NCBI RefSeq assembly: GCF_003711105.1
Contig: NZ_CP023865.1
Coordinates: forward strand, 4,055,001-4,119,000
Direction of reading: 5' to 3'
Length of the DNA stretch: 64,000 nucleotides
DNA from: Actinoplanes teichomyceticus ATCC 31121
GTDB taxonomy: Bacteria > Actinomycetota > Actinomycetes > Mycobacteriales > Micromonosporaceae
Shown here one piece after another: positions 36,434 through 54,588 of the stretch. A model generated the notes under the pieces. It worked only from the letters and a program-made list of their open reading frames with translations. It was not told where the DNA came from and searched no databases. The translations under genes and the position numbers were made by a program. Position 1 is the stretch's first letter; every line of letters starts with the position of its first letter.

Positions 36434-36640
36434 TGCCGCCGGCAACCGTCGGTCCGGCGGGTGCGGCTGGACCGTTCGGTCCCGGCCGCCGGGGCAGCCG
36501 GCACCCGGTCGGTCTCGGTCCGGCGGGTGCGGCTGGACCGTTCGGTCCCGGCCGCCGGGGCAGCCGGCACCCGGTCGGTCTCGGTCCGGCGGGTGCGGCT
36601 GGACCGTTCGGTCCCGGCCGCCGGGACTCGGCCGGTTCTC
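36434..36640. repeat. 66-bp tandem repeat, two to three copies
   Basis: GTGCGGCTGGACCGTTCGGT occurs at 36461, 36527 and 36593, so the period is 66 bases. The units also contain CCGGCCGCCGGGGCAGCCGG and GGTCTCGGTCCGGCGG. Because 66 is divisible by three, every frame stays open across it and produces misleading long reading frames. The stretch 36303-36790 shows no other feature apart from the ribosome site of the next gene. Confidence 0.85.
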
Positions 36641-36790: not shown

Positions 36791-38233
36791 GTGACCGCCC
36801 TGGCAACGCTCACGATCTCGACCCTCGACCCGACCGCCGGCCTCGACGACCTGGAACCACTGCGCGACCTCGTCGGCGACGCGCGGGTCGTCGGCATCGG
36901 CGAGTCGGCGCACGACGTGCGGGAGTACCAGCAATTGCGTTTCCGCCTCACCCGCTTCCTGGTGGAGCGCATGGGCTTCACCACGCTCGCCCTGGAGTCC
37001 GGTTTCGCCGAGGGCCTGCTGGTGGACCGGTGGGTCCGGGACGCGCCCGGCGCGGCCGGCACGGTCGACGAGATCGCCGGGCGGGGCCTGACCTACGGAT
37101 TCGGCCGCTCCCCCGAGACGCGGCGGCTGCTGAGCTGGCTGCGCCGGCAGCACCGGGAGGGGCGGCGGGTGCGGTTCGCGGGGCTCGACCTGCCGGCCGA
37201 CCTGGGCTCGCTGCTGCCCGCGCTGGAGATCGTGGCGGGCCACCTCGAGGTCGACCCGGCGGCGCGGGAGATCATCGATCAGATCCGGACGTACGCCGAG
37301 GCCTGGGCTCGGCCGCACACCCTTGCGGCGGCCCGGGCGTACGCGGAAACCCCGGCGGCGGACCGGGACGCGCTGACGGTCCTGCTGGCCGAGCTGTCCA
37401 CGCGGGTCGACGCCCTGCGGCCGATCCACGCCCGGCAAGCCGCGGCCCCCGGGCACGCGGACACCGCGGTCCGGCACGACGAGAGGCACGCGGACACCGC
37501 GGTCCGGCACGACAAGGCGCACACGGACACCGCGGTCCGGCACGACAAGGCGCACACCGACGCCGTAGTCCGGCACGACAAGGCGCACACGGACACCGCG
37601 GTCCGGCACGACGAGAGGCACGCGGACACCCCCGTCCGGCACGACGAGGCGCGCGGCGACGGCGTGGCCTGGCACGAGGCGGCAGCCACCGCGCGGCACG
37701 CGCTGCGCCTCGCCGTCCTGCTGGACCAGATGCTGCGCGCCCAGCTCGCCGCGGCGCAGGGCTCGACGGCGCACGCGGTGGTCAACGTCCGCGACGCCGC
37801 GATGGCCGAGACCGCCGCCCATCTGCTGCGGGACGGGCAGCGCATGGTGATCTCCGCGGCCAACAACCACCTGCAGCGCATCCCGATCGATCTGGGCGAT
37901 TCATCTGTTGCCGTGCTGGGTGGCCACCTGGCCACCGGCCTCGGCGACGGGTACCTGTCGATCGCGGTCACCTGCGGCGGGGGCCGGACGCCGACGAGGC
38001 GGCCGGCGCCGGGCACCGAGCGCGGCGTGCAGGTGCTGACCGTCGACCTGGCCGCCCCGGCGCCGGGCAGCGTGGAGGCGTTGCTCGGCGGCGACCGGCC
38101 GGGGATCACCGATCTGCGGCCGTTGCGGGGCGTGCCCGGCGGGCCGCGGCGGTACCGCAACCTGGACGGCTACCTCGACGTGCCGGTCGCGGACGCGTTC
38201 GACCTGGTCGCCGTCGTGCCCCGGCTGCAGTGA
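36791..38233 (+). CDS. Erythromycin esterase-family protein with an internal repeat insert
   Basis: A 480-residue protein of the Ere/SucC-like esterase family. The family start is clear: VVGIGESAHDVREYQQLRFR (Glu38, His41) and FTTLALESGFAEG (Glu69). RFAGLDLPADLGSLLP, the helix with NVRDAAMAETAAHLL and VISAANNHLQRIP complete the domain. EreB-type enzymes open macrolide lactones; many actinobacterial members have unknown substrates, so resistance is only possible. Residues 222-287 hold six copies of an 11-residue repeat (H-A/T-D-T-A-V-R-H-D-x-x) absent from the family. GTG 36791 is used because AGGAG lies 6 bases upstream. Confidence 0.85.
   Translation: MTALATLTISTLDPTAGLDDLEPLRDLVGDARVVGIGESAHDVREYQQLRFRLTRFLVERMGFTTLALESGFAEGLLVDRWVRDAPGAAGTVDEIAGRGLTYGFGRSPETRRLLSWLRRQHREGRRVRFAGLDLPADLGSLLPALEIVAGHLEVDPAAREIIDQIRTYAEAWARPHTLAAARAYAETPAADRDALTVLLAELSTRVDALRPIHARQAAAPGHADTAVRHDERHADTAVRHDKAHTDTAVRHDKAHTDAVVRHDKAHTDTAVRHDERHADTPVRHDEARGDGVAWHEAAATARHALRLAVLLDQMLRAQLAAAQGSTAHAVVNVRDAAMAETAAHLLRDGQRMVISAANNHLQRIPIDLGDSSVAVLGGHLATGLGDGYLSIAVTCGGGRTPTRRPAPGTERGVQVLTVDLAAPAPGSVEALLGGDRPGITDLRPLRGVPGGPRRYRNLDGYLDVPVADAFDLVAVVPRLQ
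37454..37651 (+). repeat. 33-bp in-frame tandem repeat, six copies
   Basis: Units start at 37454, 37487, 37520, 37553, 37586 and 37619. The core is GACACCGCGGTCCGGCACGA, coding D-T-A-V-R-H-D. Period 33 keeps the frame. Copies differ by few bases (for example GAGAGG versus AAGGCG), so expansion is recent. Confidence 0.93.
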
Positions 38234-47856: not shown

Positions 47857-47947
47857 GCCGGATCTTTCGGCAGCCGTTCCACGATTCGTAGTACTTGTCC
47901 CGGGCGGCGCCCGGGAACACCACTGCCCGGTCGGCGCCGGTGGCCCC

Positions 47948-48178
47948 TGCCGGTCCGGCCGGGACCCGCAGCCGCCGGTCAATCCCCGGCCGGGCGATGG
48001 CGCCGTGCCGGTCCGGCCGGGACCCGCAGCCGCCGGTCAACCCCCGGCCGGGCGATGGCGCCGTGCCGGTCCGGCCGGGACCCGCAGCCGCCGGTCAACC
48101 CCCGGCCGGGCGATGGCGCCGTGCCGGTCCGGCCGGGACCCGCAGCCGCCGGTCAACCCCCGGCCGGGCGGCCGGTTC
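47948..48178. repeat. 58-bp tandem repeat, four copies
   Basis: Units start at 47948, 48006, 48064 and 48122. The core is TGCCGGTCCGGCCGGGACCC followed by GCAGCCGCCGGTCAA. Copies are nearly identical, only one base (T/C) differing in the first. The period is not a multiple of three. The last copy overlaps the C-terminal codons of the tautomerase gene. Confidence 0.92.
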
Positions 48179-49350: not shown

Positions 49351-49749
49351 GTGCGACACGGCAGATGGATCGGGCGCGCGGCGTTCGCGGTGATCGTCAT
49401 CGCGCTGGTCGGCTATCTCGTCCGGGTCGGGCTGGCGCGGGCCGACATGGTGGCCAGCAGCGTCGGGGCGGTCGTGGCCCTGGCCTCGCTCGGCGCGTCC
49501 TACCTGTTCCCCGCGCAGCCCAGCGCCCGTCCCGGCGCCGCCCGGGCCACCGGCGCGGGGGCCGTCGCGGTCGCCGCCGACAACGAGGGCGCGATCACCA
49601 CCGAGGTCTCCGGCACGGCCGCGACGGCCCCGGCGCCGCGACCGGCGCCGGGCGTGACCGCGGCCGGACCCGGATCCGTCGCGGTCGGCGGCGCGAACCG
49701 CGCCCCGATCCGCACCCGGGTCGCCCGCGACGACGGGGACGGGCGGTGA
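49351..49749 (+). CDS. Small membrane protein with two glycine-rich adaptor motifs, partner of the STAND ATPase
   Basis: A 132-residue protein with two hydrophobic helices (about 8-28 and 33-54) and an Ala/Pro-rich tail. The tail holds two copies of a 19-residue motif: GAGAVAVAADNEGAITTEV (68-86) and GPGSVAVGGANRAPIRTRV (106-124). The same motif is at the N-terminus of the next protein (residues 14-32). Sharing a short motif between a membrane protein and an NLR-like ATPase in one operon is the layout of effector-receptor pairs that signal by homotypic motif contact. GTG 49351 is the only in-frame start before the first helix; its ribosome site is poor. The next gene overlaps by 4 bases (GTGA). 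Confidence 0.72.
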   Translation: MRHGRWIGRAAFAVIVIALVGYLVRVGLARADMVASSVGAVVALASLGASYLFPAQPSARPGAARATGAGAVAVAADNEGAITTEVSGTAATAPAPRPAPGVTAAGPGSVAVGGANRAPIRTRVARDDGDGR

Positions 49750-52331
49750 GCTTCCGCAAGCCGGGGACCCAGGTCTCGGCCGGTGGCCTCGGCGCGATCG
49801 GCATCGGCGGCGACAACAGCGGCCCGCTGTTCACCAACGCCACGGTGGTGATCGCGCCGCGACAGGTGTCCTGGCCGGTCCGTGTCGGGCCGGTGCCACC
49901 GGCCGCGTCGGCGTTCCAGCCCCGGCAGGCGCTGCGCGAGCGGATCGAGACGGCCCGGCGGCACGGCGACGACGTCGTTCTCGGTCAGCCCGGCCCGGCG
50001 CGCCCGGCCACCCGGATCCTGGCCGGCGGAGGTGGCGTCGGCAAGACGCAGGTGGCCGCCTGGTTCGCCCGCGAGCACGCCACCGATCTCGTCGTGTGGG
50101 TCGCCGCCGTCTCCACCGATCACGTGATCACCGAGTACGCCCGCGCGGCCCGGCGGGTGGGCGCTCCCGGAGCCGACGGCGCCGATGCGGGCGCCGACGC
50201 CGCGGCGTTCCTCGACTGGCTGCGCGGCACCGACCGGAGCTGGCTGGTCGTGCTCGACGACATCGCCGACCCCGCGGACGTGACCGGGTGGTGGCCCCCG
50301 CAGCACCCGAACGGCTGGACGCTGGCCACCACGCGGCGCCGCGACGCCGCCCTGGCCTCCGCCTCCCGGCAGCGGATCGACGTCGACGTCTACGACCCGC
50401 AGGAGTCACAGGCGTACCTGACCCAGCGGCTCACCGAGGTGGGCCTGGCGCACCTGCTGGACGGCGACGTCGCCGGCCTCGCCCAGGCGCTGGGCCACCT
50501 GCCGCTGGCGCTGTCGCACGCCGCCGCCTACCTGATCAACGAGGAGGAGTCCTGCGGCGCCTACCTGGCCCGCTTCACCGGCGGCCGGGAACGGCTGGCC
50601 GAGCTGATGCCCGCCGACAGCGACCCGGACGACTACGGCCGGCCGGTGTCGGTGACCCTGCTGCTCGCACTGGAAGCCGCCGACCGGGCGTCCCCGGCCG
50701 GGCTCGCCCGGCCGGCCCTCGCGCTGGCCGCCCTTTGCGACCCCGCCGGACATCCCGAGACGCTCTGGCGCGCCGACGCCGTCGTCGACCACCTGACGAG
50801 CCTGCGCGGCGAGCCGGTCTCCGCCGACCAGGCGCACCGGGCGCTGCGGCTGCTGCACCGCTACGGGCTGCTGCACCACACCGGCGCCGACCCGGCCCGC
50901 TCGGTACGCATCCATGCGCTGACCGCCCGCGCCGCCCGCGAGACGATCGTCACGGATCCCGACCGACTGGCCAGAACCGTCGCCGACGCGCTCGTGGAGA
51001 TCTGGCCGGAGGACGACTACGGCGCCGACGACCTCGGCGAGGTGCTGCGGGCCAACGCCGGGCACCTGCAGGCCCTGGCCCCCGAGGCGCTCTGGGCGGA
51101 CGGCGTCCACGACCTGGTGCCCCTGATCGGCCTCAGCCTGTTCCGCGCCGGCCGGCACACCCCCGGCATCGCCCACTGGGAGGGGCTGGTCGAGCAGGCA
51201 CGAGCCCGGCTCGGCGACGAGCACATCGACACCCTGAGCGCCCGGGGCAACCTCGCCGGCGTCTACTGGCAGGCCGGGCGCACCGCCGACGCGATCGCGC
51301 TGCTGGAACGGGTCGCCGGCGACTGTGCCCGGCTGCTGGCCGCGGATCATCCGGCCGTGCTGGTCTACCGTTCGAATCTCGCCACCTCGTACCGTCAGGC
51401 CGGGCGATACGCCGAGGCGGTCGCCCTGCAGGAGCAGGTGATCGCCGAGTACCGGCGGCGGCCGGACACCGCGCCGGCGGACACCCTCGTCGCCCGGGCC
51501 AACCTCGGTGTCTCCTACGGGTACGCCGGGCGCACCGACGACGGCGTCCGGGTGCTGGAAGAGGTCGTGGCCGAGCGGGAACACCTGCTGGGCCCGACCC
51601 ACCCGGACACCCTCAAGGCCCGGGTGCACCTGGCCACCCTGTACCGGGACTCCGGACGCCTGGAGCGCGCCATCGCCATGCAGGAGGGCGTGCTCGCCGA
51701 GCAGGAGACCCGGCTGGGGGCCCGCCATCGGGAGACCGTCATCACCCGCTCGCAGCTGGGCACCTCGTACTGGCGGGCCGGGCGGCTCGGCGAGGCGATC
51801 GCGATCGAGGAGCAGGTGCTCGCCCAGCACGAGGAGCTGCTGGGCGCCGACCATCCGGCCACCCTGCTGGCCCGGGACAACCTCGCGGTGTCCTACGTCG
51901 GCGCCGGACTGACCGAGAAGGGCACCGCGCTGCTGCAGAAGGTGGCCGGCGACCGCACGCGGGTGCTCGGGCCCGCGCATCCCGACACTCTCACCACGCT
52001 GGGCAATCTGGCCAACGCGTACGCCACGGCGGGCCGCATCGCCGACGCCTTCCGACTGATCAGGATCGTCACCGCCGGGCGCGAACGGGTCCTGGGCCCG
52101 AAGCATCCACAGACGCTGACCGCCCGGGCCGAACTGGCCGCCTGCCACTGGCATCTGGGCCGCACGCCCCGCGCGACGGCTCTGCTGCGCAGGGTCGTCG
52201 CCGACCGCGAGGAGGTGCTCGGTCCCGGCCACGAGGACACCCGGCTCGCCAGAGCCTGCCTGCTCGCCTGGACCGGCGCGGAGGCGGCGTCCGGCTACCG
52301 CCCGCCGGCGGCCGGGCACCGGGGGCGCTGA
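49746..52331 (+). CDS. STAND/NB-ARC ATPase with tetratricopeptide repeats
   Basis: An 861-residue NLR-like protein. It starts with the glycine-rich motif GLGAIGIGGDNSGPLFTNA (14-32). The NTPase has Walker A GGGGVGKT (Lys100), Walker B SWLVVLDDI (Asp171-Asp172) and the NB-ARC helical part including GHLPLALSHAAAYL. From about 470 to 840 there are eight to nine TPR units of about 42 residues with the kinesin-light-chain pattern (for example HPDTLKARVHLATLYRDSGR). STAND proteins oligomerise when the repeat domain senses a trigger. The GTG start overlaps the small membrane protein gene, so both are produced together. The trigger is unknown. Confidence 0.9.
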   Translation: MSFRKPGTQVSAGGLGAIGIGGDNSGPLFTNATVVIAPRQVSWPVRVGPVPPAASAFQPRQALRERIETARRHGDDVVLGQPGPARPATRILAGGGGVGKTQVAAWFAREHATDLVVWVAAVSTDHVITEYARAARRVGAPGADGADAGADAAAFLDWLRGTDRSWLVVLDDIADPADVTGWWPPQHPNGWTLATTRRRDAALASASRQRIDVDVYDPQESQAYLTQRLTEVGLAHLLDGDVAGLAQALGHLPLALSHAAAYLINEEESCGAYLARFTGGRERLAELMPADSDPDDYGRPVSVTLLLALEAADRASPAGLARPALALAALCDPAGHPETLWRADAVVDHLTSLRGEPVSADQAHRALRLLHRYGLLHHTGADPARSVRIHALTARAARETIVTDPDRLARTVADALVEIWPEDDYGADDLGEVLRANAGHLQALAPEALWADGVHDLVPLIGLSLFRAGRHTPGIAHWEGLVEQARARLGDEHIDTLSARGNLAGVYWQAGRTADAIALLERVAGDCARLLAADHPAVLVYRSNLATSYRQAGRYAEAVALQEQVIAEYRRRPDTAPADTLVARANLGVSYGYAGRTDDGVRVLEEVVAEREHLLGPTHPDTLKARVHLATLYRDSGRLERAIAMQEGVLAEQETRLGARHRETVITRSQLGTSYWRAGRLGEAIAIEEQVLAQHEELLGADHPATLLARDNLAVSYVGAGLTEKGTALLQKVAGDRTRVLGPAHPDTLTTLGNLANAYATAGRIADAFRLIRIVTAGRERVLGPKHPQTLTARAELAACHWHLGRTPRATALLRRVVADREEVLGPGHEDTRLARACLLAWTGAEAASGYRPPAAGHRGR

Positions 52332-54466: not shown

Positions 54467-54588
54467 GGGCGGCCCGGCACCCGACCTCAGCGGGACGGTG
54501 CGGCACCCGACCTCAGCGGGACGGTGCGGCACCCGGGCCGCGCGGGACGGTGCGGCACCCGGGCCGCGCGGGACGGTGCGGCAGGCGA
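54467..54588. repeat. 26-bp tandem repeat, four full copies and a partial one
   Basis: GGGACGGTGCGGCACCCG starts at 54492, 54518, 54544 and (diverging) 54570, with a related partial copy at 54467. Two inner variants alternate: ACCTCAGC and GGCCGCGC. It fills the gap after the SpoIIM-like gene; the rest of 54420-54765 holds only the GH92 promoter region. Confidence 0.85.

Follow-up and report, generated by a model that had tools for sequence, protein, structure and literature searches.

Bacterial amyloid signalosomes built on NLR (NOD-like receptor) proteins, with the motifs BASS1–10 and Bell effectors, were described by Dyrka et al. (2020; cited here through PMC7889193, PMC8086366, PMC12261475 and PMC9815663, and, like the other published systems below, from excerpts of the papers). 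In these actinobacterial systems the two genes are adjacent or overlapping, the motif lies at the N-terminus of the NLR and at the C-terminus of the effector, and the effector is small and membrane-associated. In Podospora anserina, HET-S carries two 21-residue repeats (R1 and R2) and NWD2 carries one (R0) at its extreme N-terminus (PMC7889193, PMC12881547). Here we describe a locus of Actinoplanes teichomyceticus ATCC 31121 that shares the BASS/Bell features and this repeat layout. It lies in a stretch of 64,000 nucleotides (the window; bases 4055001–4119000 of a single-contig genome of 8,287,152 bases), and all positions given below refer to the forward strand of the window. The first gene encodes P0001 (49351..49749; 132 residues, GTG start), a protein with two predicted transmembrane helices (two-TM) and the proposed effector. 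The second encodes P0002 (49746..52331; 861 residues, GTG start), the proposed receptor, a STAND (NLR-like) ATPase with C-terminal tetratricopeptide repeats (TPRs). Together they probably constitute an NLR amyloid signalosome, with the STAND ATPase as the predicted switch for the two-helix membrane effector.

The C-terminal tail of P0001 holds two copies of a 19-residue motif, R1 (GAGAVAVAADNEGAITTEV, residues 68–86, 49552..49608) and R2 (GPGSVAVGGANRAPIRTRV, residues 106–124, 49666..49722), and a receptor-side copy of the same length, R0 (GLGAIGIGGDNSGPLFTNA, 49785..49841), occupies residues 14–32 of P0002. An earlier note on this DNA had claimed a gapless pattern common to three copies and overlapping genes for a small two-helix protein and a STAND-TPR protein; R1, R2 and R0 all fit the pattern, and both genes were found in their places. 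R1 and R2 are each identical to R0 at 7 of 19 residues, and in 20,000 shuffles of the R0 residues the ungapped score of R1 or R2 was never reached. The whole P0001 tail resembles the whole P0002 N-terminus more weakly, with 8 of 5,000 shuffles reaching the score. At the DNA level the copies are identical at only 35–39 of 57 bases, and a recent tandem DNA duplication was therefore ruled out as their source. When the 8.29-Mb genome was searched with a profile (A3) built from 24 copies of this motif (motif A), these three among them, there were exactly three matches at E ≤ 0.1, namely R1, R2 and R0.

The two-plus-one layout of HET-S and NWD2 is thus present in P0001 and P0002, and it recurs in relatives. 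When the copies of the locus under test were left out of the profile, two copies of motif A were detected in 14 of 16 two-TM tails and one copy in 14 of 14 STAND N-termini (independent E-value ≤ 0.1). The two tails with a single copy are those of L210, where the first copy is degenerate, and L140, where the tail is type-B-like (the motif kinds are given below). In the AlphaFold2 model of P0001, residues 4–26 and 31–52 are helical; these are the two transmembrane helices that we predict from the model and from hydropathy (49360..49428 and 49441..49506), and the family signature GLDxADKxAS is present at the turn between them in a degenerate version, GLARADMVAS. Both hydrophobic helices precede the tail, which has none of its own. 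Within the tail there are three strands per repeat at matching places (residues 64–67, 72–74 and 82–87; residues 102–105, 110–112 and 120–125). Ten-residue means of the predicted local distance difference test score for residues 61–130 were 84–93 with an alignment of motif A sequences only and 68–86 with a mixed alignment. The P0001 repeats are therefore predicted beta units, to be compared with the beta-solenoid of HET-S/NWD2 (PMC12881547, PMC7889193). Unlike HET-S, P0001 has no HeLo domain in Pfam scans and only two helices before the tail; unlike NWD2, which combines NACHT and WD40 domains, P0002 is a TPR receptor whose NB-ARC match is weak. Searches of Pfam and of the PDB sequences found no sequence relation to either protein. 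The one match of the motif profile among PDB sequences was taken as chance, and the hit to HELLF prion fibrils in a PDB fold search (E 8.7) is noise.

Motif A is almost confined to the two kinds of protein in which it was first seen. Among 67 genomes of the same genus, 14 had a match at E ≤ 0.1, giving 31 matches in total. The 21 matches at E ≤ 1e-3 were seven STAND N-termini, 13 two-TM tails and one small frame just before a STAND gene; one of the ten weaker matches is the second copy in a two-TM tail (G082), and the rest were taken as chance or left unassigned. A search of 354 genomes of the family at E ≤ 1e-3 gave 39 matches in 15 genomes, many of them members of the profile itself. The earlier note had asked whether the motif might be equally common outside STAND genes. 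It is not: 37 of the 39 matches fall in STAND N-termini (13) or two-TM tails (24), and the two assigned to neither place are the small frame just before a STAND gene and one match in G357. The matches outside the profile (G082, the STAND side of G078, G275, G309, G314, the STAND side of G356, G357, G363, G375, a second locus in G065, and G580, which belongs to another family) are likewise STAND N-termini or two-TM tails, bar those two. Across 296 genomes of the class, a match was found in the source genome and G580 only. Five two-TM tails were found by the motif search (L190, L205, L210, L212 and L213), and each belongs to a protein with two hydrophobic segments; in L205 and L190, motif-A doublets sit on a different two-TM module lacking the GLDxADK signature. 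As a separate observation, a marginal match (E 0.095) lies towards the N-terminal side of a further protein that has two hydrophobic segments (L184, G026:C1:3928943). By eye, two STAND N-termini carry two motif kinds in a row, A plus the kind D described below in L187 (G065:C127) and RHIM-like plus A in L214 (G375:C105), as if one receptor were able to fire two effectors.

Conservation of the membrane gene at the protein level, on which the earlier reading depended, is seen at several depths. P0001 was matched in 29 of the 67 same-genus genomes (E ≤ 0.01). An alignment of the two-TM part alone, motif excluded (A2), had matches in 224 of the 354 family genomes at E ≤ 0.01, the weak ones of which may be chance transmembrane matches, and in 12 of the 296 class genomes at E ≤ 1e-6. 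In a protein-database search with the full alignment, 44 proteins were found among 7,995 scored candidates (those sharing most words). These had no precomputed Pfam domains and are named ‘hypothetical’ or ‘uncharacterized’, bar one labelled as a membrane protein. The closest named relative of P0001, from Actinoplanes sp. NPDC024001, is 62% identical, and on this basis the same-genus genomes are presumed to be Actinoplanes-like; a scan of the named genomes with P0001 gave no relative. At E ≤ 1, P0001 itself was matched in neither Pfam nor PADLOC, and its only NCBIfam match was sub-threshold. Two of 15 family members matched a PHROGs ‘holin’ (E 0.002), and there were weak matches to CbtA/MFS in Pfam; these were taken as generic transmembrane resemblance.

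To compare loci we used a table of 79, made up of 80 fetched stretches minus L076 and L077, plus the window, and drawn mostly from the top of a longer match list. Two hydrophobic segments are present in all 79. A locus was called a split pair if the next same-strand frame had a P-loop and at least 450 residues (the shortened L145 was also kept), giving 38 split pairs (window included), eight fusions of two-TM module and P-loop protein in a single frame, and 33 loci that are neither. For 14 of the 38 split-pair partners the first 700 residues were scanned with Pfam; every one matched NB-ARC, NACHT, nSTAND, AAA_16 or a related P-loop model, and six of the 14 passed a curated cut-off.

In local alignments of the tail of the small protein with the N-terminus of the STAND protein, the true partners among the 38 split pairs scored 58.9 and other combinations 35.4 (z 11.1, 0 of 20,000 permutations). 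Restricting the comparison to 21 non-redundant pairs, in which the small proteins are less than 50% identical, left this result in place (59.6 versus 33.5; z 8.7, 0 of 20,000 permutations). The same tails scored 24.7 against the STAND core (24.1 when mismatched) and 27.3 against their own shuffled N-termini. Blind clustering of tails and of N-termini also agreed (adjusted Rand index 0.42 at k = 6, 0 of 5,000); this test is secondary to the permutation test because STAND sequence past the motif contributes to the N-terminus clusters at this k. The two-gene pairing that the earlier note looked for in other genomes therefore recurs and is motif-matched, and at the level of sequence these comparisons show that receptor and effector are paired by a matched motif.

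The matched pairs exchange their motif among at least five kinds. Four were recognized by eye as recurrent: kind A, GxGSVAxGGDNxxxIxT, which is that of the window; kind B, (S/T)GDAxAxxGGxANTG; kind C, the RHIM/BASS3-like GVQIGxxNTQHN; and kind D, GQSVTxSxxGGxVxQVxGVxGxV. Rarer kinds were seen by eye in L136, L170, L015, L226/L227 and L233/L234, the last two being two-TM/P-loop pairs from other families of the same class that share QAGRDI-like or ISGGxFxxxVIQG motifs. Four genomes hold two of the 38 pairs each, by eye of different kinds in G019, G170 and G272 and of the same kind in G065. Elsewhere, in L134 (G193), the gene following the two-TM gene shares a VHMNAEV/VHLHARV motif with it by eye, and a P-loop was not found there.

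Kind C links the two-TM family to a peptide with published amyloid behaviour. The BASS3 peptide of the Frankia protein ORT49035.1 showed amyloid-like aggregation by attenuated total reflectance Fourier-transform infrared spectroscopy and Congo red (PMC8086366, excerpts). Sister two-TM tails are identical to this peptide at 16 of 20 (L164), 16 of 21 (L143), 15 of 21 (L159), 13 of 21 (L078) and 13 of 21 residues (L139), and none of 2,000 shuffles reached the alignment in any of the five. The comparison is of sister tails with one published BASS3 peptide. Carrying single RHIM/BASS3-like motifs, these five tails recall HELLP/PNT1, in which PNT1 is an NB-ARC-TPR protein, and the RHIM necrosome, systems with PP/RHIM motifs (as excerpted in PMC7889193). 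Unlike in the RHIM systems, motif A of the window is not a RHIM and the Pfam RHIM matches of sister tails, found in six of eight RHIM-like effectors (E 0.0015–0.12), are all under the cut-off; neither of two receptor N-termini had one. A motif-matched STAND gene lies near the BASS3-like tails of L078 (2 of 300 shuffles) and L164 (0 of 300). In L139, L143 and L159 neither a motif-matched STAND gene nor a P-loop frame was found in the stretches read, and the BASS3-like two-TM gene is followed by a frame that we take to be phytoene-desaturase-like.

The effector is exchanged as well as the motif. Among the closest relatives of P0002, type-B tails were found on a two-TM module in L004 (56% identity to P0002; tail against N-terminus, 0 of 500 shuffles) and on a Bell-like helical partner in L003 (57%; 0 of 500). 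The STAND protein of L006 (40%) is accompanied by a Bell-like protein with a different motif (3 of 500), and that of L009 (39%) by a two-TM module whose tail is RHIM-like (3 of 500). We assume that the helical partners correspond to the published Bell domain. Genes beside the STAND relatives were called automatically at 17 loci, and most calls were wrong, antisense or unconvincing frames, so that only the clear cases (L003, L004, L006, L009 and L015) were used; L007 and L008 had no convincing partner. An alignment of the two-TM proteins showed no relation to four Bell-like partners (hhalign probability 0.24%), and in this the two-helix hairpin of P0001-type effectors differs from the BASS/Bell systems.

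In L002 and L005, among the closest relatives of P0002 (53–55% identity), the two-TM module is fused to the STAND protein in one frame; these two were taken from an earlier reading of the loci and not from automatic calling. Six of the eight fusions in the table were scanned, and five pass the Pfam NB-ARC or NACHT cut-off, L157 having sub-threshold matches. In none of the eight did the motif-A profile match within the 200 residues that follow the module. Fusions without the motif fit the proposed mechanism best, because a single receptor-effector chain needs no plug. Outside the table, L077 is by eye a further two-TM/P-loop fusion.

By analogy with HET-S/NWD2, we propose the following sequence of events as the most likely. 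On the known behaviour of STAND proteins, the TPRs of P0002 would sense a trigger and P0002 would oligomerise, gathering its single N-terminal R0 motifs. The gathered motifs would adopt a beta-arch or solenoid fold and template R1–R2 in the cytoplasmic tail of P0001; this templating is predicted from the model and from the published BASS3 peptide in sister effectors. The clustered tails would then assemble the two-helix hairpins, which, judging from position and architecture, would make the membrane permeable and leave the infected cell dead or arrested. The earlier reading is thus partly supported as a whole. Signalling to a membrane effector through a homotypic motif is well supported by comparison, because the motif is near-confined, the pairing is motif-matched and the membrane gene is conserved; membrane damage by P0001 and a role in phage defence we infer. 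SLATT effectors of nucleotide-signal conflict systems are also small two-TM proteins predicted to form pores (PMC7159879, excerpts), but a Pfam SLATT match is absent from P0001 and 14 relatives, and P0001 would be activated by a motif, not by a nucleotide.

Several observations weigh against the signalosome. The database relative P0028 has a single motif copy by eye, and PDB fold searches with two models gave nothing significant. In the pairing test the true partner ranked first in only 11 of 38 cases and in the top three in 20, because partners of the same motif kind score high too; the true partner of L066 ranks 14th, L120 (rank 29 of 38) has no convincing match, and L151 scores 35, under its mean of 37.7 against other partners. 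The 33 loci that are neither split pair nor fusion also count here. Six of them have a motif-matched STAND gene elsewhere nearby, namely L078, L119, L126, L140 and L164 (0–2 of 300 shuffles in a two-strand search) and L072 (upstream, by motif search); the two-strand search was added after the first count and raised this number from four to six. The other 27 had no matched STAND gene in the stretch read, some stretches ending at contig ends, and therefore copies that are orphaned or re-wired may be common. Beside the two-TM gene of L064, L065 and L116 a P-loop was not found, and the neighbour that carries the motif encodes a second membrane protein, in which a matching type-B motif lies near the N-terminus; these are possible three-part or re-wired systems.

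The two-helix module could, moreover, be an anchor and not a toxin. P0001 would then be a membrane anchor or sensor that recruits the STAND protein via the motif, with the output elsewhere. The fusions would tether a STAND protein equally well, and the three loci in which the two-TM protein is paired with a second membrane protein are also in keeping with such a role. We nevertheless consider it unlikely: another effector domain was found neither in P0002 nor in the first 674–800 residues of the six scanned fusions, the two-TM module fills the place that Bell-like partners take beside P0002 relatives (L003, L006), and the repeats stand at the C-terminus of a small protein, as in HET-S.

It is somewhat less likely still that motif A is a short non-amyloid beta-helix dimerisation unit, acting by one-to-one pairing without templated polymerisation. 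The AlphaFold2 model, a small ordered beta structure, would suit such a unit, motif A contains little Q or N, and published amyloid evidence for motif A itself was not found. Templated assembly is favoured by the 2:1 repeat count shared with HET-S/NWD2 and by the fact that the same module can carry, in place of motif A, a motif of BASS3 type, the peptide of which forms amyloid (PMC8086366, excerpts).

P0002 falls by score in the same STAND-TPR family as the FxSxx_TPR proteins of NCBIfam (NF040586, 392.8 bits against a cut-off of 300), which could make it a component of an FxSxx-COOH peptide system with the small gene incidental. This is very improbable, as the two FxsB radical-SAM genes that exceed the cut-off in this genome are found at distances of about 224 kb and 3.2 Mb from P0002, and several of the STAND proteins closest to P0002 are accompanied by small proteins with the matching motif (L003, L004, L006, L009) or contain the two-TM module as a fusion (L002, L005); the FxSxx system was rejected on fxsB linkage, fxsA being outside the search. 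The motif copies might also be glycine/alanine-rich linkers that look alike by chance because the genome is GC-rich, a view for which the only moderate excess of the whole-tail score over shuffles might speak; against the permutation, held-out and genome-wide tests it is scarcely credible.

P0002 has the features of a STAND/NLR-like protein, with P-loop NTPase motifs and C-terminal TPRs. Walker A (GGGGVGKT, residues 94–101, 50025..50048) and a Walker B-like motif (LVVLDD, residues 167–172, 50244..50261) were read from the sequence. The TPR region, the proposed sensor, covers about residues 461–838 (51126..52259), with Pfam TPR_10 and TPR_12 matches and, in the PDB, matches to the TPRs of kinesin light chain. 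Pfam TPR models score above their cut-offs (TPR_10, 194.7 bits) and NB-ARC below (17.3 versus 23.5 bits); the 56%-identical relative (L004, also listed as L062) passes the NB-ARC cut-off. Neither P0001 nor P0002 was matched in the PADLOC phage-defence catalogue. The two genes overlap by 4 nt (GTGA, 49746..49749, read from the sequence), and their translation would be coupled there. The P0001 open frame has GC fractions of 0.79, 0.67 and 0.94 at the three codon positions, and a scan for sigma-70-type promoters and terminators gave no match.

Downstream of P0002 lies a divergent gene pair that we take to encode RDD and SpoIIM-like proteins. The RDD gene was matched in 48 of the 67 same-genus genomes, and in all 29 relatives in which its locus was read it adjoins the SpoIIM-like gene; within 1.5 kb either side of the pair, none of the 29 had a match to P0001 or P0002. 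The P0001–P0002 pair is therefore accessory. A tandem repeat at 47941–48170 (58 bp × 4.0, 98% matches) lies beside a presumably GGDEF/EAL-like gene, and other GC-rich arrays occur at 36449–36625 (66 bp × 2.7, 100%), 37453–37652 and 54475–54583 (26 bp × 4.2).

The principle of such signalling is already known from BASS/Bell in actinobacteria; the two-TM effector family, the motif exchange and the fusions, none of which came up among the titles and abstract openings listed in literature searches, would be the new part. The HET-S/NWD2-like 2:1 repeat count, the motif exchange and the fusions also go beyond the earlier note. The same listings gave no paper on a two-TM effector in bacterial amyloid-NLR pairs, although Dyrka et al. 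(2020) may mention one. On balance we lean towards a second executioner class in bacterial amyloid-NLR immunity, in which a two-helix hairpin is combined with any one of five or more motif codes that exclude one another (HET-S-like two-repeat solenoids, SGDA/ANTG-rich, QSVT/VxQV, BASS3/RHIM and others), each matched to its receptor, in which Bell-like effectors can replace the hairpin and in which the motif can be discarded on fusion. The motif would then work as an exchangeable plug that determines the effector fired by a given receptor. The locus would offer a bacterial parallel of the two-plus-one repeat design of HET-S/NWD2 in short expressible parts (132 residues and a 32-residue N-terminus), and therefore templating, specificity and membrane killing would be directly testable in laboratory bacteria. 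The family would be a natural experiment on specificity, with one membrane module connected to different receptors only by swapping a ∼20-residue motif, or joined to them in a single chain, and it would add to bacterial NLR signalling an effector class that Bell-based searches could miss.

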